Source: Acidimicrobiia bacterium (GTDB lineage Bacteria > Actinomycetota > Acidimicrobiia > Spongiisociales > JAHEDJ01). From it: a stretch of 32,498 bases of DNA. The notes under the pieces were generated by a model. It made no database searches and had not been told where the DNA came from. It worked only from the letters and a program-made list of their open reading frames with translations. Below, one piece after another: positions 4,421-31,514 of this stretch. Numbering within the stretch: position 1 is the first letter of the stretch; each line of letters begins with the position of its first letter. Location of the stretch: contig JARGFH010000023.1 of assembly GCA_029210695.1 (NCBI GenBank), forward strand, positions 1 through 32,498, read 5' to 3'. The position numbers were made by a program, and so were the translations under genes.

Positions 4421-6379
4421 TCAGAGCCGGCGGAGAAAGGACAGAACGTCCTCCCGATCGGCCGTGATTGGCATCGGGGGCAGCGACCCGAGCACCACCC
4501 GTCCGTATCGCATCTTCGCCAGCCGCGCATCGAGGATGGCCACCACTCCCCGATCGTAGGTTGTCCTGATCAACCGGCCGACTCCCTGGGCGAGCAACAT
4601 CGTCGCCCGCGGGAGGTCGACGGATTGGAAAGCCGATCGACCCTGCGCCTCGGCGAGTTCCCGTCGCGCCACCCACAAGGGATCATCGGGCCGCGGGAAC
4701 GGCAGACGGTCGATGACGACCAGTTCCAGTGCCCGGCCCGGGATGTCGAGTCCCTCCCAGAACCCCATCGTGGCGACGAGGACGGACGTCTCGTCCTGCT
4801 CGAATCGCTCAACGAGACGGCGCTTGGGAAGGTCCCCCTGAGCAAGCACCTCGAGGTCGGTACCCGCCCGCAACCGCTCAGCCGCCAGCTCGAGCATGCG
4901 GTAGCTGGTCGTCAGGACCAGGGCTCTCCCACCGGCCGCTTCCACGAGTGCAACGATCTCCTCGGCGGCGGCGTCTCGCCAGCCGGGTTGCCTGGGATCG
5001 GGCAAACCTGCGGCAACGTAGATGCGCCCCTGCGTCTCGTAGTCGAAAGGGCTCCCCACCGACAGCATGCGGGCGCCGAGCGGAACATCGTCGGGATCCG
5101 CCGCGAAACCCAAGCGGAGGGCGAACGGAAGGAGAGACCCTCCCACCGACAGCGTTGCACTGGTGAGGACGGCCGGGCGCTCGGAGAGAAGCCGTTCCGC
5201 CATCAGAGGCCCGACATCGATCGGAGCGACCTTGAAGCGTTTTCTCCGGCCGTCCGTTTCGACCCAGGACACGTGGGAATCGGGTGGGTCGAGGCCCATG
5301 GCGAGATCCCCGGCCAGGTGACCGCCCAATCTCATCGCCCTGGCACGTGCACCACGCAGACCGGAAGTGGCGGGCTCGGCAGCCCGAATCCGACCGTTGA
5401 TGCGAGCGACGACTGCCGCCGTCGAAGTGAACTCACCGCCGACGTTCGAGTTCCGGGGATCCGGCATGTGTCCCGCCGCCGCACCATCTAATTCGGTCTC
5501 CAACGCCCTGGCACGATCCCGCAATGGGTCGAGCAACCGGCGGGCATCTTCCGGCGGCATGACCCGTCTCGCAAAAGACGACACCGAACGATGGAATTGC
5601 CAGATCCGCCCCGGGGTCAGTTCGATACCAAGCGCAGAAGCCATCGTGTCCTCGAGCCGATGCGCCTCGTCGAAGATCACAACATCGTGCTCCGGCAAGA
5701 CACCGCCATCGAGCGCCATGTCCGCCCCGTAGAGGTGGTGATTGACGACGACGACGTCGGCAGTGGCTGCGCGATCGAACGCAGCCATCGCAAAGCAGTC
5801 AACCCCCTGCGGGCAGTCGTCCCTACCAGGACACTCCATCCCCGAGACAGAGACTTCCGACCAGATTTCATCCGGGACGGCCACGGGAAGATCATCACGA
5901 TCACCGGTTTCATGCACCCCGGCCCATTCGACAAGGGTGGCAATCAAGTCGGGCTCACGAGCTACGTCCGCAAAGAGATCGCCCTGTTCGAATCCCTCAC
6001 CCAACTCCTCGAGCTTGGACAAGCACAGGTAGTTCTGGCGACCTTTGATCACCGCCCACGAGAACCGCACGCCGAGCGGTTCGAGCGATTCAGCCAGAAA
6101 CGGCAGATCACGACCTGCGAGCTGATCTTGAAGGCTCTTCGTGGCGGTAGAAACCACAACCTTCTTCCCGGAGGCGACGGCCGGAATGAGATAGCCGAAA
6201 GACTTTCCCGTTCCGGGACCCGCCTCACACAACACGTGGGCGCCCGTTTCCAACGCCTCGGCGATGGCGCGCACCATCTCCACCTGACCTGCCCGGCGCG
6301 CTCCGCCCACCTTGACATCGACCACCGCATCGAGGAGCGCCTCGACACGGTCGGCAGGATCACTCGGGAGGGCCGGCAT
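4421..6379 (-). CDS. dinG: DinG/XPD-type ATP-dependent DNA helicase
   Basis: A 652-residue superfamily 2 helicase. Walker A GPGTGKS lies near residues 54-60, followed by STATKSLQDQL (motif Ia), FDEAHRLED (DEAH, motif II), SATLS (motif III), a VLTTSY segment and the C-terminal QGVGRLIRT (motif VI). Between motifs Ia and II four cysteines (in YLCLSK, MECPGRDDC and VDCFA) form the expected XPD-like iron-sulfur site, so it is probably a 5'-3' helicase acting on forked DNA, R-loops or G4 structures. The ATG at 6379 is preferred over 6442 because TACCAT lies 7 nt upstream and the longer start would leave only 17 bp to the divergent pfkA. Confidence 0.88.
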   Translation of the reverse strand: MPALPSDPADRVEALLDAVVDVKVGGARRAGQVEMVRAIAEALETGAHVLCEAGPGTGKSFGYLIPAVASGKKVVVSTATKSLQDQLAGRDLPFLAESLEPLGVRFSWAVIKGRQNYLCLSKLEELGEGFEQGDLFADVAREPDLIATLVEWAGVHETGDRDDLPVAVPDEIWSEVSVSGMECPGRDDCPQGVDCFAMAAFDRAATADVVVVNHHLYGADMALDGGVLPEHDVVIFDEAHRLEDTMASALGIELTPGRIWQFHRSVSSFARRVMPPEDARRLLDPLRDRARALETELDGAAAGHMPDPRNSNVGGEFTSTAAVVARINGRIRAAEPATSGLRGARARAMRLGGHLAGDLAMGLDPPDSHVSWVETDGRRKRFKVAPIDVGPLMAERLLSERPAVLTSATLSVGGSLLPFALRLGFAADPDDVPLGARMLSVGSPFDYETQGRIYVAAGLPDPRQPGWRDAAAEEIVALVEAAGGRALVLTTSYRMLELAAERLRAGTDLEVLAQGDLPKRRLVERFEQDETSVLVATMGFWEGLDIPGRALELVVIDRLPFPRPDDPLWVARRELAEAQGRSAFQSVDLPRATMLLAQGVGRLIRTTYDRGVVAILDARLAKMRYGRVVLGSLPPMPITADREDVLSFLRRL

Positions 6380-24238: not shown

Positions 24239-25486
24239 CTAGGTCCCTTCGTTCCAGGAGGCGAGGTAGCGCTTCTGTTCTTCGGTGAGTTGCTCGAGGC
24301 CGCATCCCATGGTGGCCAATTTGATCGTGGCTACTTCTGCGTCTAGATGCTCGGGAAGCGTGTAGATCTCAGGTTTCAGGGTATCCGCGTTGACGATCAG
24401 CCACTCGGCAGCCATTGCCTGATTGGCAAACGACATATCCATCACATCGGCCGGATGTCCTTCAGCAGCCCCGAGGTTCACGAGGCGGCCCTCCGCCGCC
24501 ACGAACAGGCTCCGGCCGTCGGCCAGGTCGAATGCCTCGAGATTCTCCCTCACCGGCCGCCGCGCCACGGCCATCGCCGCCAGTGCCGCCAGGTCGAGTT
24601 CGATATCGAAATGGCCGGCGTTGGAAAGGATGGCGCCATCCTTCATCCGCTCAAAATGACGGCCCCTTAGAACATGCTTGTTCCCCGTCACGGTAACGAA
24701 AATATCGCCGGTCGCCGCGGCATCATCGGCCGTCAACACTTGATGGCCGTCCATCGCAGCTTCGAGCGCACGGATCGGATCGACCTCAACCACGACGACC
24801 TTCGCTCCGAACCCCGAGGACCGGTCGGCGACACCGCGCCCGCAATCGCCGTAGCCGACGACGACCACCGTCGATCCGGCCAGCAGCACGTTGGTCGCCC
24901 TGAGGATGCCGTCGATCGCCGATTGCCCGGTGCCGTAGCGATTGTCGAAGAGGTGCTTCGTCGCCGAGTCGTTGACCGCAACCACCGGCAGTCGGAGCGT
25001 CCCGTCTTTCGACATCGCCCGCAGGCGAATCACACCGGTCGTCGTTTCCTCGGTTGAACCAATCGGATTCAATTCGGTGCGCTCCGTGTGGAGGATGGTG
25101 GCAAGGTCGGCCCCATCGTCCATAGTCACGTCGGGCTCGGCATCGAGCACGGCGTGGATGTGCCGGTAGTACCGGTCGGGGTCCTCACCACGCACCGCGA
25201 AGACCGGAATGCCGTCCTCGACGAGGGCCGCCGCCACGTCATCCTGCGTGGAGAGCGGATTGCTGGCGCACAGAAGGACGTTGGCGCCACCGTCCCGCAG
25301 CGCCAGCATCAGGTTGGCCGTTTCAGCCGTCACGTGAAGGCAGGCCGCCACGGTCCGGCCCTCGAGCGGGCGTTCGGCGCGGAACCGCTCTCGCAGGGAT
25401 TCCAGCACGGGCATTCTCCGGCCCGCCCAGGCAATCCGTCTGGCTCCTGCACCGGCCAGGGCCGGATCTGCAATATCGAAATCCAT
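24239..25486 (-). CDS. ahcY: S-adenosylhomocysteine hydrolase, short (archaeal/Thermotoga-like) form
   Basis: A 415-residue NAD-dependent enzyme that cleaves S-adenosylhomocysteine to adenosine and homocysteine, closing the methyl cycle. Seen are the N-terminal CLHVTAETANLMLAL, STEETTTGV, AVNDSATKHLFDNRYGTGQS, the Rossmann motif VVVGYGDCGRG and the C-terminal TEEQKRYLASWNEGT. It lacks the roughly 40-residue insertion and the C-terminal HYRY of the long form usual in mycobacteria and eukaryotes. ATG at 25486 is preferred because AAGGA lies 7 nt before it; GTG at 25501 would overlap the preceding gene by 4 bp. Confidence 0.92.
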   Translation of the reverse strand: MDFDIADPALAGAGARRIAWAGRRMPVLESLRERFRAERPLEGRTVAACLHVTAETANLMLALRDGGANVLLCASNPLSTQDDVAAALVEDGIPVFAVRGEDPDRYYRHIHAVLDAEPDVTMDDGADLATILHTERTELNPIGSTEETTTGVIRLRAMSKDGTLRLPVVAVNDSATKHLFDNRYGTGQSAIDGILRATNVLLAGSTVVVVGYGDCGRGVADRSSGFGAKVVVVEVDPIRALEAAMDGHQVLTADDAAATGDIFVTVTGNKHVLRGRHFERMKDGAILSNAGHFDIELDLAALAAMAVARRPVRENLEAFDLADGRSLFVAAEGRLVNLGAAEGHPADVMDMSFANQAMAAEWLIVNADTLKPEIYTLPEHLDAEVATIKLATMGCGLEQLTEEQKRYLASWNEGT

Positions 25487-25497
25487 GAGTTGATCCT

Positions 25498-26484
25498 TCA
25501 CAATCGGTTCTTTAGCTCGGTCAAAATGTCGACGGGCACAGGGTCGATCCCCGCTGCCTCGGCCACGTACACGGATACGAGGTCACCGATGAGCGAAGCC
25601 GTGGCGGAGCGCGCCAGCACCGAGGTACCGGTCGTCCACACCTCAACGGCCGCTTGGACGGTCGGGCCGACCAAGTCGGCCGTCAGCCTGAATCGGCGCG
25701 AAATCTCAGGCATTTCACCCTGGTCCCGCAAGACTACGAGTCCTGTTGTGCTACTCAAACCATGGTGCGAGGAGGCCCAACCAACGAGCTCGTTGTGGTT
25801 GAGCTCCGGCACAATCGACCAGTAGGCCGGCGTCTTGGCGTTCTCGTGGAACTGCTTTGCCCACCGTTGGGCGGCCACCTCGGTTGGGCCGGCCGACCCC
25901 CAGACGGCAACCAGACGGCCGGCGAGGGCATCCGCAATTCGACGGGCCTGATCGTGACCGGGACCAGCCCGCTCAACGCCCAGCAGGTCGGCGGTTTCCT
26001 TCCCCGCTTCAAGGAGCATCGGAACCGGATCACCGAGCGGCGAGGCGGCCGCCACGATTCTCAATACTGCCCCGACGAGGTATCCCAGCGCCGCCCGGGG
26101 TTGCATCCCGGCCGGAACACGAACGGTTGGCAAATCATTCGCACCGGCGACGCGGGTCAACTCGCCGCCCGTCGCCACGACTGCCACCGGCAAGCCGTAG
26201 TCGAGGGCAGCATCGACCGATGAGAGCGTTTCTGCCGTGTTCCCCGAGTACGACACGGCAACGACCACCGGTCGCACGTGCTCAGCCCAGGCAGGCAGTC
26301 CGTAGTCCTTGTGAATCCGCACGTCGACGCCTTCTGCCGCCGTAACGACGCGAACGAAATCCCCGGAAATCCCGGACCCCCCCATCCCACATACGAGCAC
26401 GGTCGAAGCCGGGGCAATGGTGGGAGCTTCGAGTTCGGACGCCCACCGGTACTGGTCCGGAAGGCTTTCGATCATGGCCCACAT
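25498..26484 (-). CDS. Bifunctional phosphoglucose/phosphomannose isomerase (SIS domain)
   Basis: A 328-residue SIS-domain protein. VLVCGMGGSGISGDFV near residues 29-44 is the sugar-phosphate binding start, VAVSYSGNTAETLSS near 73-87 is the second SIS motif, and the C-terminal half has WAKQFHENAKTPAYW and PELNHNELVGW, characteristic of bifunctional PGI/PMI enzymes. It would interconvert glucose 6-, fructose 6- and mannose 6-phosphate and so feed the adjacent phosphomannomutase. Its ATG overlaps the stop of that gene by one base. The mycobacterial counterpart (Rv3256c) lies next to manB in the same way. Confidence 0.85.
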   Translation of the reverse strand: MWAMIESLPDQYRWASELEAPTIAPASTVLVCGMGGSGISGDFVRVVTAAEGVDVRIHKDYGLPAWAEHVRPVVVAVSYSGNTAETLSSVDAALDYGLPVAVVATGGELTRVAGANDLPTVRVPAGMQPRAALGYLVGAVLRIVAAASPLGDPVPMLLEAGKETADLLGVERAGPGHDQARRIADALAGRLVAVWGSAGPTEVAAQRWAKQFHENAKTPAYWSIVPELNHNELVGWASSHHGLSSTTGLVVLRDQGEMPEISRRFRLTADLVGPTVQAAVEVWTTGTSVLARSATASLIGDLVSVYVAEAAGIDPVPVDILTELKNRL

Positions 26485-28004
26485 CAGCGCGGCTGCTCGG
26501 CTTCATCGATCAGCATGACGGGGATGCCATCTTCAACGGGGTACCGCAGCCCGCAGTCGAGACATTCGAGTTTGGAGGCACCGACGTCCTCGCGGAGATC
26601 CCCATGGCATTTCGGACATACCAGGATGGCCTTGAGCTCTGGAGCGATGAGCCCGGCAGGCGACGGGCTGCCCTCGATCACAGTGCGGACTTCGCTCACC
26701 ATGCGGTCCACCATCGCCGCGTCTGCCCCTTCCACGTTCAAGCGCAAGACCGGTTCGGTATTAGACGGCCGCAGGTTGAACCACCGGTCCGACCACGACA
26801 CCGTCAGCCCGTCGGTCTTGTCGATCTCGCCATCGGCGAACTTCCGCTCGACGGTGACCAGCGCCGCATTCTGATCGGCAACGGAGAGGTTGATTTCCCC
26901 GGATGCGGCGTACGGCTCGACTTCGGTGCGCAGTTGCGAGAGAGATTGCCCCGATTCGGACAGCACTTGAAGGAGCACCAGCATCGCCAGCATGCCGGAG
27001 TCGGCCCGGTAGTTGTCACGGAAGTAGTAGTGGCCGCTGTGCTCGCCGCCGAATATGGCGCCGGTCTCCGCCATGATCTGCTTGATGAACGAGTGGCCGA
27101 CGCGGGTGCGAATCGGCTTTCCACCGGCGGCGATCACGACCTCGGGCACCGCTCGACTCGTGATCAGATTGTGGACGATGGTCGCCCCGGGTTCCCGTGC
27201 CAGAAACCATTTGGCGATCAGCGCCGTTGTCGTGCTCCCCGACAGCGGTCGGCGCTGGTCGTCGATGAAGAAGGCGCGATCGGCGTCGCCGTCAAAGGCA
27301 ACGCCGAGGTCGGCGCCCTCTGTTTCCATCAACGCGATCAGGTCGACCAGATTGTCGGGGTTGAGCGGATCGGCCGGATGATTCGGGAAGGTCCCATCCG
27401 GCTCGAGATACAACGGGACCAGATCTGCGCTGATGCGAGCGAAGACCGCCGGAAGCACAACTCCTGCCATCCCGTTGCCGCCATCGACTGCCACTTTGAG
27501 GTTTCCGATGGCCGGTCCGTTCACGATCGAGAACAGATGCTCGATATATCCGGACAAACCATCGAAGTCGGCGGCCGACCCGGGTGTTTCGGCAACCGGC
27601 AACTCACCTTCCGCCATCGCCCGGATGTCCTGAAGCCCGGTATCGTGCCCCACGGGTGCAGCACCGGCGCGGCACAGCTTGATGCCGTTGTATTCGGGAG
27701 GGTTGTGCGAGGCGGTGATCATTGCCCCCGGGACTTCCTCGCGACCGGATACGTAATACACCGTGTCGGTAGCAACCTCTCCGAGATCGAGCACATCGAC
27801 ACCTTGACCTGTGATTCCTTCGATGAACGCACCGGCGATGCTCGGCGACGATGCGCGACAATCGCGACCAACTGCGATCCGATCGGCGGAGACGAACGAC
27901 GCAAACGCCGCGCCGATACGGCGGGCTCCCTCTGCGTCGAGGTCACCGGTGTCGGTGCGGCCCCGAATGTCGTATGCCTTGAAGATCATCTCAAAATCAC
28001 TCAT
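26484..28004 (-). CDS. manB: Phosphomannomutase/phosphoglucomutase fused to a Trm112-like zinc ribbon
   Basis: A 506-residue protein. Residues 1-445 are an alpha-D-phosphohexomutase: catalytic Ser99 in TASHNP, metal loop D238-G-D240-A-D242, substrate loop GEHSGHYYF at 320-328 and phosphate-binding RPSNTEPVLRLNVEG at 412-426. It converts mannose 6-phosphate to mannose 1-phosphate for GDP-mannose. Residues about 455-506 are a second domain with C463, C466, C481 and C484 and the Trm112-like pattern LVCPKCHG...LDCGLRYPVEDGIPVML. In Streptomyces-like genomes this zinc ribbon is a separate gene between manB and the SIS gene; here the two are one frame. An alternative start is ATG 27989. Confidence 0.92.
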   Translation of the reverse strand: MSDFEMIFKAYDIRGRTDTGDLDAEGARRIGAAFASFVSADRIAVGRDCRASSPSIAGAFIEGITGQGVDVLDLGEVATDTVYYVSGREEVPGAMITASHNPPEYNGIKLCRAGAAPVGHDTGLQDIRAMAEGELPVAETPGSAADFDGLSGYIEHLFSIVNGPAIGNLKVAVDGGNGMAGVVLPAVFARISADLVPLYLEPDGTFPNHPADPLNPDNLVDLIALMETEGADLGVAFDGDADRAFFIDDQRRPLSGSTTTALIAKWFLAREPGATIVHNLITSRAVPEVVIAAGGKPIRTRVGHSFIKQIMAETGAIFGGEHSGHYYFRDNYRADSGMLAMLVLLQVLSESGQSLSQLRTEVEPYAASGEINLSVADQNAALVTVERKFADGEIDKTDGLTVSWSDRWFNLRPSNTEPVLRLNVEGADAAMVDRMVSEVRTVIEGSPSPAGLIAPELKAILVCPKCHGDLREDVGASKLECLDCGLRYPVEDGIPVMLIDEAEQPR

Positions 28005-28020
28005 ACGGTCCTTTCCGCGT
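28005..28020 (-). promoter_or_regulatory. Ribosome-binding region of the phosphomannomutase gene
   Basis: ACGCGGAAAGGACCGT directly precedes the ATG at 28004 and matches 9157-9172 base for base. GGAAAGG is the likely 16S-pairing part. Confidence 0.55.
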
Positions 28021-28081
28021 TGAGCCCGGATTGTACGGCACGGAAGTGGACCCTTCTCTCCCGCCTAAACTCCCCTCGCCA

Positions 28082-28789
28082 ATGGTCAGTGTCTCGATTG
28101 TCATCCCCATCCACAATGAAGCCGGCTTCCTGGCTACCGCCTGGGCTCGGTTGCGCCCGGAACTCGAGCAACTCGAGGCCGACGTTTCTGTGTACCTAGT
28201 TGAGAACGGCTCGACCGATGAGACCCTTGCGATCGCACGGGGACTAGAAGGCTCGTCTGTCTTCGTGCTTTCGCTCCCCCAACCCGACTACGGGGCGGCG
28301 ATGCGGGAGGGGTTCCTGGCTGCCGCCGAAGCCGACTGGATCGTCAACTTCGATATCGACTACTTCTCGGTTCCATTCATCCGCGATCTCTTCGACATCG
28401 ACGCCGACGTCGTCATCGCCTCGAAACGCGCACCCGGCTCTGATGATCGGCGCTCTGCACTGCGGAGGGCCGGGACACGCACCTTCAATCTGCTGCTACA
28501 AACGCTCTTCGGGTCCCGGGTGTCGGACACCCACGGGATCAAAGGGTTCCGGGGCCAGGTGGTCACCCGGCTCGTCCCCATGACGACGCGCACCCTGGAT
28601 TTGTTCGACACCGAACTCGTATTGAGGGCAGAGATGGCAGGGCACCGCATTACCGAGGTGCCCATCGTGGTCGAGGAGCTACGAGAGACGAGGTCGTCGT
28701 TCGTCAAGCGGGTGCCGAGGACCCTCAAGGGCCTTCTTCAGCTCCGCCGGTCCTTCTCGAGTGAGCGCCGGAACACGAGATCCCGGTAA
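28082..28789 (+). CDS. Family 2 glycosyltransferase
   Basis: A 235-residue GT-A fold glycosyltransferase. It opens with VSIVIPIHNEAG, followed by VENGSTDETLAIARGL, GAAMREGFLAAAEADWIVNFDIDYF (acidic metal-binding segment near residues 98-100) and GIKGFRGQVVTRL. It has no membrane segment, so it may act on a nucleotide sugar at the cytoplasmic face. The ATG at 28082 was chosen because the fold begins at once and TAAACT lies 10 nt upstream. Its 3' end overlaps the convergent gtrA-like gene by 52 bp. Confidence 0.85.
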   Translation: MVSVSIVIPIHNEAGFLATAWARLRPELEQLEADVSVYLVENGSTDETLAIARGLEGSSVFVLSLPQPDYGAAMREGFLAAAEADWIVNFDIDYFSVPFIRDLFDIDADVVIASKRAPGSDDRRSALRRAGTRTFNLLLQTLFGSRVSDTHGIKGFRGQVVTRLVPMTTRTLDLFDTELVLRAEMAGHRITEVPIVVEELRETRSSFVKRVPRTLKGLLQLRRSFSSERRNTRSR

Positions 28790-29196
28790 CCGGCATATTT
28801 CGGAAACAAGATCACGATTACGGCCGAGAATTTGGCGATGTTGAGCTGCAGCACGGTCAGAGGCCCCCACAGAAGCTGCGCCCCTTCGACGATCGCCAAT
28901 GTGGCGGCCAGTGACAGGATGTTCACCACGTAGAAGACACCTGTTTCGCGGGTAGACCCCCAGCCTTCGTCGAGTTTGAAAGTCCACCGCCGGTTCAAGA
29001 CATACGACAGCGCGGTGGCCGCTACGTACGAGATGGTGACGGCTACCGACGCCTCCCACCGCTCGTTGGGAAGGACCAGCAGCAACACGTTGAAGATTCC
29101 AAAATCGATGATCGTGTTGAACCCGCCCACCACCGCCAGCCGGATGAACTGCCCGAGGGATTCCCGGTTCATGAAACTCTGCAGGTACCGCTTCAC
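28738..29196 (-). CDS. GtrA-family membrane protein
   Basis: A 152-residue protein with four membrane segments typical of GtrA: FIRLAVVGGFNTIIDFGIFNVLL, VTISYVAATALSYVLNRRWTF, YVVNILSLAATLAIVEGAQLL and NIAKFSAVIVILFPKYAGYRDLVF. GtrA proteins are thought to move lipid-linked sugars across the membrane for wall or O-antigen glycosylation. The GTG at 29196 overlaps the TGA of the upstream membrane protein by 4 bp, so they are coupled. It faces a glycosyltransferase gene, which fits a shared glycan role. Confidence 0.85.
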   Translation of the reverse strand: MKRYLQSFMNRESLGQFIRLAVVGGFNTIIDFGIFNVLLLVLPNERWEASVAVTISYVAATALSYVLNRRWTFKLDEGWGSTRETGVFYVVNILSLAATLAIVEGAQLLWGPLTVLQLNIAKFSAVIVILFPKYAGYRDLVFRRSLEKDRRS

Positions 29197-31514
29197 TTGG
29201 CGGTCGCCCTGCGCCACACGAACGGCAAGGTGATGGCCAGACCGACCACGGTCAGCACGATCCCGATCCACTCGGCCCAGGTTCGTTCAAACCGGAGCTC
29301 CACATGCCCTTCGGTAGGTACGACCACCATCAGCGATGGTGTCGCCCGGTACGGCCCATCGGCCCCTTCGGCCGTCCAGTTCGGAAAGTATGAGATCTTG
29401 ACGAGATGGGGCACTCCGATCGCCGTAGTGTCGAACGAGAGCGAGTCGTCGGTGATCTGCACGTTGGTTGCCGGAGCATGCTCGCCGATCGGGACGAGCG
29501 GTAGTTCATCGAGCCCGTCGATGCGGGGCCAGTTCGCAGGACCATTCGCAGTGACCCAGCGGTCGAGAAGATCGATATCGTCGTACCACTCGAAGGCAAG
29601 GTCCCCGAACGGCGATTTGCGTTCCTCGCCGGTGATGATGGAGAGGGGAACGCCGAGCACCTTGGCAAACAGGCTTCCGCCCCGTCCATCCGCGTAGACG
29701 GCCGGTTCATGGGTGGCAACCTCGACCAGGTCGTGGGAGGGCAGCTCGTACACACGGAATGGGCCGCTGGCGGCCACTTCTTCGAAAACCTCCGGCAGTG
29801 CGGCCGCTTCGGCCAACGCCTCCTCGCTGAAAGCAACGTAGTAGCGCACGCCGTAGATCTCGAGGTGCTCGACACCTCGCTCGAAGTCGAAGGTGTGGTA
29901 GTTGAGTCCGGGGATGGGGTTCGACGGCTTCCTGCTCATCTCGGCGGCGTTGAGAAAGTGAAACGGGGTCGTGAGCGAGGACTCGAAGAACAGGCCCTCC
30001 ATCGAGGGATGCCCATCCGACCAATAGGGGAACAGCATCAGCGACATCGAGGTGCCGTATTGATCCAGATAGTCGGAATCGACCTCCCATTGGATCCGCC
30101 CGTCGGGCAGGGTATCGATCGTCTCCATCAGCGCTTCGTACTCGGGCCAGGGCGCCTTGCTCTCGTAGCCGGAGTAGTTCCAGGTCGCCCATCCGGAGAG
30201 AAAGGCTATGCCGAGGCCTCCAGCCCCGGCGAAGCCCACCGAGCCGGCCAGCACCAGCACGATCGCGGTGCGAACCTCGAGAGCGAACACCATGGCGGCC
30301 AAAGCTGCCAGCGCCACGACCCCGGCCACGATCAAGGCAATCCCGGAATTCCCCGGCCGGCCGGAGAAGGCACCGGCCGCCATGAGGAGGGCGATGGTGA
30401 CCACCGCCGTGATCGGTTGCCAGAGGGCCAGTTGCTTCGGCAACCGCCTGGCGAGCCCCACCATCAGAGCACCGACTGCCAGACCTGCGAAGAACGACAA
30501 CCCGAAGAACCAGTATGGAAGGAGCCGGCCATTCCAGAGTTTCCATGGTTGCTCGGCGAAAGCCACCGGCAACCAGAAGTAGATCAACGGAATCAGGGTC
30601 AACCCGACGACCGGGACGGCCCTGGCGGTCTTCCGCACCGCCCACACCATGCCGACCACCGCCAGGGGAACGATCGGCCAAATTTCAACCGGGAACAACT
30701 CGTCCCACCTGGTGAGCGGCGACCAGGCCATGTCGGCGGTCAAACCGAATCTCGCCAGCAAAGGCAACGCCCAGAACCCTGCCACCGCGAAGCCGGCGAT
30801 CCAGGTAAACGCAATGCGTCCGGCCGCCCGTCTCCACATCAACATCGGCAGAGTTGCGAACACGATCACGATCGTGGTGATGACGTGACTGAGTGCTGTG
30901 AGCCCGAGCACCAACGCCGCAACAGGGAGCAAAGATGGATCGTCTTTGAGGCCGCGGATCAGAAGTCCGAAGTAGAGGAGCGACAAAGCGAACGACCACG
31001 AAAACGAAAACTCACCGGCCAGGGTGGAAGCGATATTCGCCCCGTAGATCGTGAAGCTCTCGATGAATACGAAACTGCCCCCGGCCGCACCCCCGACGGT
31101 GGCAACAGCACGGGAGAGTCCCATTGAGCGAGCCAGAAAGTACGCCGCCGGAGGAGTCGCCAGCAGACCGGCCACAGTCACCATCTTGAAGGCGATCCCG
31201 TACGGGAGGACAAGATCGAGGAACACGATGACGAGGGAGGGAAGCGGGAAGTAGAAATAGAAGATCGGGAACCCGGCGAACCAGCTATTGCTCCAACCCA
31301 TGATCTGCCCGGATGGCAACAACACGTCCCTGAGGAATGCGGGTCCGAGGACATGTGCACCCATGTCGCCACCCGCAGGGGTGTTGGCCGCAAAGATGAG
31401 ATCCGGTCGCATCACCCCCAGGATCAGGAGGCTGACGATGCCGACTCCGACGAGCGGGACCCAGTTGGGAGTGGAGTCCGATGCGGTGGCGGGCGAACGA
31501 CCCGATTGAGTCAT
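29193..31514 (-). CDS. Large multi-spanning membrane protein, PTPS-related (PF10131-like) / GT-C type
   Basis: A 773-residue integral membrane protein with about a dozen hydrophobic segments in its first two thirds, a large external domain at about residues 465-735, and a final membrane segment before a short basic tail. The NTPAGGDMGAHVLGPAF segment near residue 45 and SWFAGFPIFYFYFPLPSLV near 77 match the start of the 6-pyruvoyl-tetrahydropterin-synthase-related membrane family, which looks like GT-C glycosyltransferases. The name is historical and does not imply pterin chemistry. TAGCCT lies 6 nt before the ATG. It is coupled to the gtrA-like gene downstream. Confidence 0.72.
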   Translation of the reverse strand: MTQSGRSPATASDSTPNWVPLVGVGIVSLLILGVMRPDLIFAANTPAGGDMGAHVLGPAFLRDVLLPSGQIMGWSNSWFAGFPIFYFYFPLPSLVIVFLDLVLPYGIAFKMVTVAGLLATPPAAYFLARSMGLSRAVATVGGAAGGSFVFIESFTIYGANIASTLAGEFSFSWSFALSLLYFGLLIRGLKDDPSLLPVAALVLGLTALSHVITTIVIVFATLPMLMWRRAAGRIAFTWIAGFAVAGFWALPLLARFGLTADMAWSPLTRWDELFPVEIWPIVPLAVVGMVWAVRKTARAVPVVGLTLIPLIYFWLPVAFAEQPWKLWNGRLLPYWFFGLSFFAGLAVGALMVGLARRLPKQLALWQPITAVVTIALLMAAGAFSGRPGNSGIALIVAGVVALAALAAMVFALEVRTAIVLVLAGSVGFAGAGGLGIAFLSGWATWNYSGYESKAPWPEYEALMETIDTLPDGRIQWEVDSDYLDQYGTSMSLMLFPYWSDGHPSMEGLFFESSLTTPFHFLNAAEMSRKPSNPIPGLNYHTFDFERGVEHLEIYGVRYYVAFSEEALAEAAALPEVFEEVAASGPFRVYELPSHDLVEVATHEPAVYADGRGGSLFAKVLGVPLSIITGEERKSPFGDLAFEWYDDIDLLDRWVTANGPANWPRIDGLDELPLVPIGEHAPATNVQITDDSLSFDTTAIGVPHLVKISYFPNWTAEGADGPYRATPSLMVVVPTEGHVELRFERTWAEWIGIVLTVVGLAITLPFVWRRATAK

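Follow-up and report, generated by a model that had tools for sequence, protein, structure and literature searches.

The fused gene and its neighbours

The window, i.e., the whole 32,498-nucleotide stretch of Acidimicrobiia DNA analysed here, carries on its minus strand a gene in which a phosphomannomutase/phosphoglucomutase (PMM/PGM) continues in a single frame into a small Trm112-type zinc ribbon. The frame starts with ATG and ends with a TGA stop (26486-26484), which is overlapped by the start of the following isomerase-like gene. The features of the locus are as follows.

26484-28004, minus strand: fused PMM/PGM and Trm112 zinc ribbon gene (506 aa; coordinates with stop included)
26673-28004, minus strand: PMM/PGM domains I-IV, residues 1-444 (Pfam, NCBIfam PRK09542.1, conserved columns)
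26643-26672, minus strand: linker, residues 445-454, where the ancestral stop/start lay; a stop stands here in relatives
26487-26642, minus strand: Trm112 domain, residues 455-506, with the DGIPVMLIDEA tail (PF03966)
25498-26484, minus strand: SIS-domain bacterial phosphoglucose/phosphomannose isomerase-like gene (Pfam bact-PGI_C)
24239-25501, minus strand: sahH, S-adenosylhomocysteine hydrolase, next downstream after the SIS gene (Pfam, NCBIfam)
28031-28789, plus strand: GT2 glycosyltransferase, divergent neighbour (Pfam Glycos_transf_2)
28738-29271, minus strand: GtrA/DPMS-type membrane protein (Pfam PF04138)
29193-31514, minus strand: upstream 773-aa protein, conserved across the order, no Pfam match at E<=0.001

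Domains of the fused protein

The mutase part displays the four PMM/PGM domains in the order I-IV, all four Pfam models scoring above their cut-offs (PGM_PMM_I at residues 6-130, II at 152-249, III at 256-362, and IV at 370-440). Alignments reveal the four active-site motifs T97-A-S-H-N-P102, D238-G-D-A-D-R243, G320-E-H-S-G-H325, and R412-P-S-N-T-E-P418; one fused member (G004) has a serine replacing P413. We take TASHNP to be the catalytic-serine loop, DGDxDR the metal loop, GExSGH the sugar loop, and RxSNTEP the phosphate loop. From its sequence, the PMM part is apparently an intact mutase. The best-scoring NCBIfam equivalog is PRK09542.1 (phosphomannomutase/phosphoglucomutase), with 583.8 bits against a cut-off of 618 bits, so that an equivalog claim is not possible. 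Actinobacterial PMM/PGMs (PRK09542.1; structures 5BMN and 1K35) share the four domains and the four motifs but, unlike the fused protein, end without an extra C-terminal domain.

This C-terminal domain matches Trm112p (PF03966) over residues 459-493 with 32.2 bits, above the cut-off of 22, and falls below the NCBIfam cut-offs for Trm112_arch and YcaR (29.4 and 22.6 bits against 77 and 126). Its zinc ligands form two CxxC pairs, C463/C466 and C481/C484, at the residues given in the initial annotation. The best match in the PDB is SCO3027 of Streptomyces coelicolor (2KPI, E 5.6e-12). Both harbor the same small zinc ribbon and the same DGIPV tail, although SCO3027 is a separate 56-residue protein and not a fused domain. 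Its gene presumably adjoins a PMM gene. AlphaFold2 predicts both parts of the fused protein as folded, with a mean pLDDT of 91.7 and a pTM of 0.83, while the pLDDT drops below 50 at residues 446-449; this prediction fits a linker acting as a flexible tether.

Reality and distribution of the fusion

The initial annotation had described one frame joining the mutase to a four-cysteine domain, and this description holds. The position it gave for the junction, near 26630, lies already inside the Trm112 domain; the junction itself runs from about 26672 to 26643. A frame created by an error that removed a stop, the scenario by which the annotation could have failed, is ruled out by five separately assembled species genomes. 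The genome comparison shows that the frame runs through the junction without a stop in each of the five genomes of the window's uncultured genus (g1), the other four fused proteins having 82-95% identity to that of the window, and their linkers vary in sequence at a constant frame. A sequencing or assembly error is thus extremely improbable, although one contig of a metagenome-assembled genome of a second genus, g36 (contig C293 of G298), looks chimeric at this same gene; an error or frameshift origin was rejected on the five-genome comparison.

Fusions are rare in the order. A search of its 138 genomes with residues 370-506 as query (matches at E<=1e-22) returned an unbroken match across the junction in 12 of them, five from the window's genus and seven from g36, a genus of another family in which all seven genomes carry the fusion; six further matches cross the junction with one stop. 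At the level of the class (390 genomes, E<=1e-20), the same 12 alone are unbroken, and 30 matches extend across the junction but contain one or two stops. In a sample of 396 genomes of the phylum, which contains no g36 genome, the window itself is the only unbroken match among the matches listed.

As had also been claimed, PMM and Trm112 are separate neighbouring genes in relatives: among 40 relatives, 23 have a same-strand Trm112 gene that follows PMM immediately. Five others are fused, all from the window's genus, eight have Trm112 on another contig, and four have no Trm112 row in the comparison. A further search located Trm112 elsewhere in two of these four and found none in the other two (G037 and G039).

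Origins of the fusion

In a PMM tree of 47 sequences, the g1 and g36 fusions fall at two different positions, both well supported, and split genes lie in between; a single clade for both is rejected (dlnL 124.9, p-AU 6e-53, 32 sequences). Because the tree separates the two and the one-clade constraint is rejected, the fusion appears to have arisen at least twice; one fusion inherited by both genera was discarded on the same constraint. An ancestral fusion with many later splits may be an alternative. No split revertant was found within g1 or g36, and the sole candidate is the G298 contig C293. Its complete PMM is g36-like over the first two thirds, and the last third is no nearer to g36 than to a split gene; a second contig of this genome, C18, begins inside the fused gene and carries the fused 3' end. 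C293 thus seems to have been assembled chimerically within the mutase gene, and the idea that G298 is a split representative of the fused genus was rejected.

Split relatives illustrate how little separates the two states. In G027, the junction reads ...VKGI*MALIPDELAEILVCP, with the asterisk as the stop, TGAATG as stop and start, and both genes in the same frame; the stop in KGI*MALIPDEL stands at the linker site. In G336, it reads ...LERY*MASLLPEGLLEIMQCP, with TAGATG and again one frame for both genes. To judge from the sequences, such in-frame pairs are the likely precursor state, and stop loss between adjacent genes is the simplest route to the fusion that can be inferred. The six aligned g36 linkers have several lengths and are always in frame.

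The tethered copy

No second Trm112 was found in the window's genome, which is 97.85% complete, by a search with PF03966. In 11 of the 12 fused genomes, no Trm112 other than the fused copy passes the Pfam cut-off, the exception being G298, with a second one on its chimera-like contig; G001 has an additional match of 14.8 bits, below the cut-off. Being the only Trm112 there, it has to function while joined to PMM; together with the two origins, this goes beyond what a single fusion would suggest. Both parts of the fused gene are under purifying selection, with NG86 dN/dS values of 0.06-0.08 for the PMM part in all seven pairs and of 0.03-0.08 for the Trm112 part in the four of seven pairs with finite dS, the other three being saturated.

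The fusion would be partly nominal if the Trm112 part were also made separately, via an internal start or proteolysis. GTG, TTG, or ATG codons do occur near the junction in some members, but their positions are not shared within g1, and one member (G004) lacks all three from the end of PMM to the first cysteine. A separate product is therefore very unlikely, and an internal Trm112 start was dismissed for want of conserved candidate codons.

Trm112 position and zinc ligands across the order

The eight Trm112 copies on other contigs are that of G035 and seven copies from families f6 and f7. In G035, Trm112 (4866-5036) is still flanked by the GT2 and sahH genes, which means that PMM is what moved there. 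Around the f7 copies are purA, purB, and a gene for a class-III aminotransferase; the f6 copies have a HIT-family gene nearby. ADSL, Aminotran_3, and HIT were each confirmed by Pfam on one locus, and the remaining neighbours, purA included, were named by eye.

Among the fused and adjacent copies of the order, the zinc ligands are CCCC in 32 of 35 and CDCC in the remaining three. By class, CCCC is found in 12/12 fused copies, 20/23 adjacent ones (the three CDCC copies belong here), and 0/8 of those on other contigs. The ligands are lost in seven of these eight, which are the f6 and f7 copies: three of the four cysteines are gone, leaving mostly C-S-D-T and in one case CSSP, and the IPVML-type tail is retained. 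Six more adjacent copies from the phylum are all CCCC. These patterns suggest that the zinc form of Trm112 goes with PMM linkage, a correlation resting on few lineages, since f6 and f7 may represent one or two events, or xenologues. Instead of orthologues that moved, the f6 and f7 copies may be replacements.

Trm112 of Pseudomonadota

Trm112 is present in 274 of 299 Pseudomonadota genomes. Among the 30 best-scoring loci, it stands beside LpxK in 18 and beside KdsB in 16, neighbour identities having been checked by Pfam on examples. This YcaR-type Trm112 belongs to the same family as the zinc ribbon of the window and also adjoins sugar-phosphate or nucleotide-sugar enzymes of the envelope; it differs in mostly lacking the four cysteines (CCCC in 1/30) and in being encoded by separate genes in the cases looked at. 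Among about 155 matches listed, the six longest open frames were retained as candidate Trm112-enzyme fusions, and all six proved to be chance upstream frames. Envelope enzymes acting on sugar phosphates or nucleotide sugars are thus frequent neighbours of the Trm112 gene, yet it is not tied to PMM everywhere. A literature search of limited coverage found no paper treating ycaR, lpxK, and kdsB together.

Possible function of the tethered Trm112

In the available part of a 2017 review (PMC5372719), bacterial Trm112 is of unknown function and has no known partner, eukaryotic and archaeal Trm112 activate methyltransferases, and fusions to such enzymes occur for some bacterial Trm112. Trm112 is likewise covalently joined to an enzyme in those fusions, as far as that part describes them, but the partner here is a sugar-phosphate mutase and not a methyltransferase. 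Within a literature search of limited coverage, no paper was found joining Trm112 with phosphomannomutase, and no function of bacterial Trm112 appears in the titles or abstract openings of the related literature. The initial annotation had argued that the small protein acts with the mutase or the sugar-phosphate pathway rather than only in translation. Its basis stands, namely a true fusion, neighbouring genes in relatives, and no error; the contrast with translation has a weak premise, because the translation role is that of eukaryotic Trm112 and the available review text leaves the bacterial function unknown (PMC5372719).

The leading explanation, to which we give middling confidence, is that stop loss produced a genus-fixed fusion of PMM with the sole Trm112, and that Trm112 serves the mutase or the mannose-phosphate/envelope-sugar pathway. 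The stop, and with it the trm112 start, would have been lost between two closely spaced cistrons to yield one gene. The first four domains would make mannose-1-P/glucose-1-P, and the cell's only Trm112, on its flexible tether, would keep both parts at 1:1 in one place. Less certainly, Trm112 would be a small docking or stabilising module for the mutase itself or for the mannose-phosphate/envelope-sugar pathway, and tethering would substitute for a contact between two separate proteins, made in trans in relatives. The frame open in all g1 and g36 genomes, the second origin, the sole copy, the purifying selection, and the zinc form speak for this explanation; the low-pLDDT linker and the rarity of the fusions (12/138 genomes of the order) count against it. 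A dedicated partnership with PMM is further opposed by Trm112 lying far from PMM in f6 and f7, and beside LpxK/KdsB or elsewhere in Pseudomonadota. A link of Trm112 to sugar-phosphate metabolism is plausible. The second fusion event hints that PMM and Trm112 may work together.

A possible, though less probable, reading is that proximity in an operon is sufficient: stop loss joined coupled cistrons, and the two domains tolerate the fusion and work independently. The genes lie few bases apart, often in the same frame, so that little change is needed; the linkers vary and are flexible, other lineages have Trm112 at different places, and two fusions of tightly adjacent genes can arise without any partnership. 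Against this, each of the two separate fusions is kept in every genome examined of its genus, with no split revertant besides the chimeric-looking G298 candidate, and the zinc form tracks PMM linkage.

It is unlikely that the tethered Trm112 instead docks a third protein, be it a SAM-dependent methyltransferase or the GT2 or SIS neighbour, and brings it to PMM. The methyltransferase links of Trm112 described in the available text of PMC5372719, the DGIPVML tail kept on the free C-terminal end, and sahH remaining in the cluster would agree with such a role. Opposed to it, no methyltransferase gene was recognised in the cluster, and no partner was found for the tethered Trm112. The SIS isomerase was also considered as its real partner. 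A SIS relative is present in G000, G001, G004 (where the contig end cuts it), and the chimera-like contig of G298, but the search found none in G002, G003, or the six g36 genomes whose fused gene is complete; in these, sahH is the next relative of a window gene after the fused one. This candidate is weakened, since the fusion persists in these eight genomes and is therefore not there for the sake of the SIS isomerase. Action of Trm112 on the mutase, favoured over a third protein or independent action, is our leading guess.

A wider and doubtful proposal is that zinc-bearing actinobacterial Trm112 is a subunit of PMM/PGM or of a pathway complex, in trans in most actinobacteria and in cis in two lineages. 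If true, this would be the first defined role for any bacterial Trm112 and would make Trm112 a general enzyme-docking module, also for enzymes other than methyltransferases. The twice-occurring fusion names a candidate partner for the widespread bacterial Trm112 and offers a single expressible protein for testing the PMM-Trm112 partnership.

Other observations at the locus

The GT2, GtrA-type, and 773-aa protein genes (28031-31514) form a cluster that is kept beside the mutase across the order and possibly serves lipid-linked mannose transfer. A 531-aa open frame on the plus strand (26604-28199) is antisense to most of the mutase gene; GC-rich coding DNA probably accounts for it as a shadow frame.
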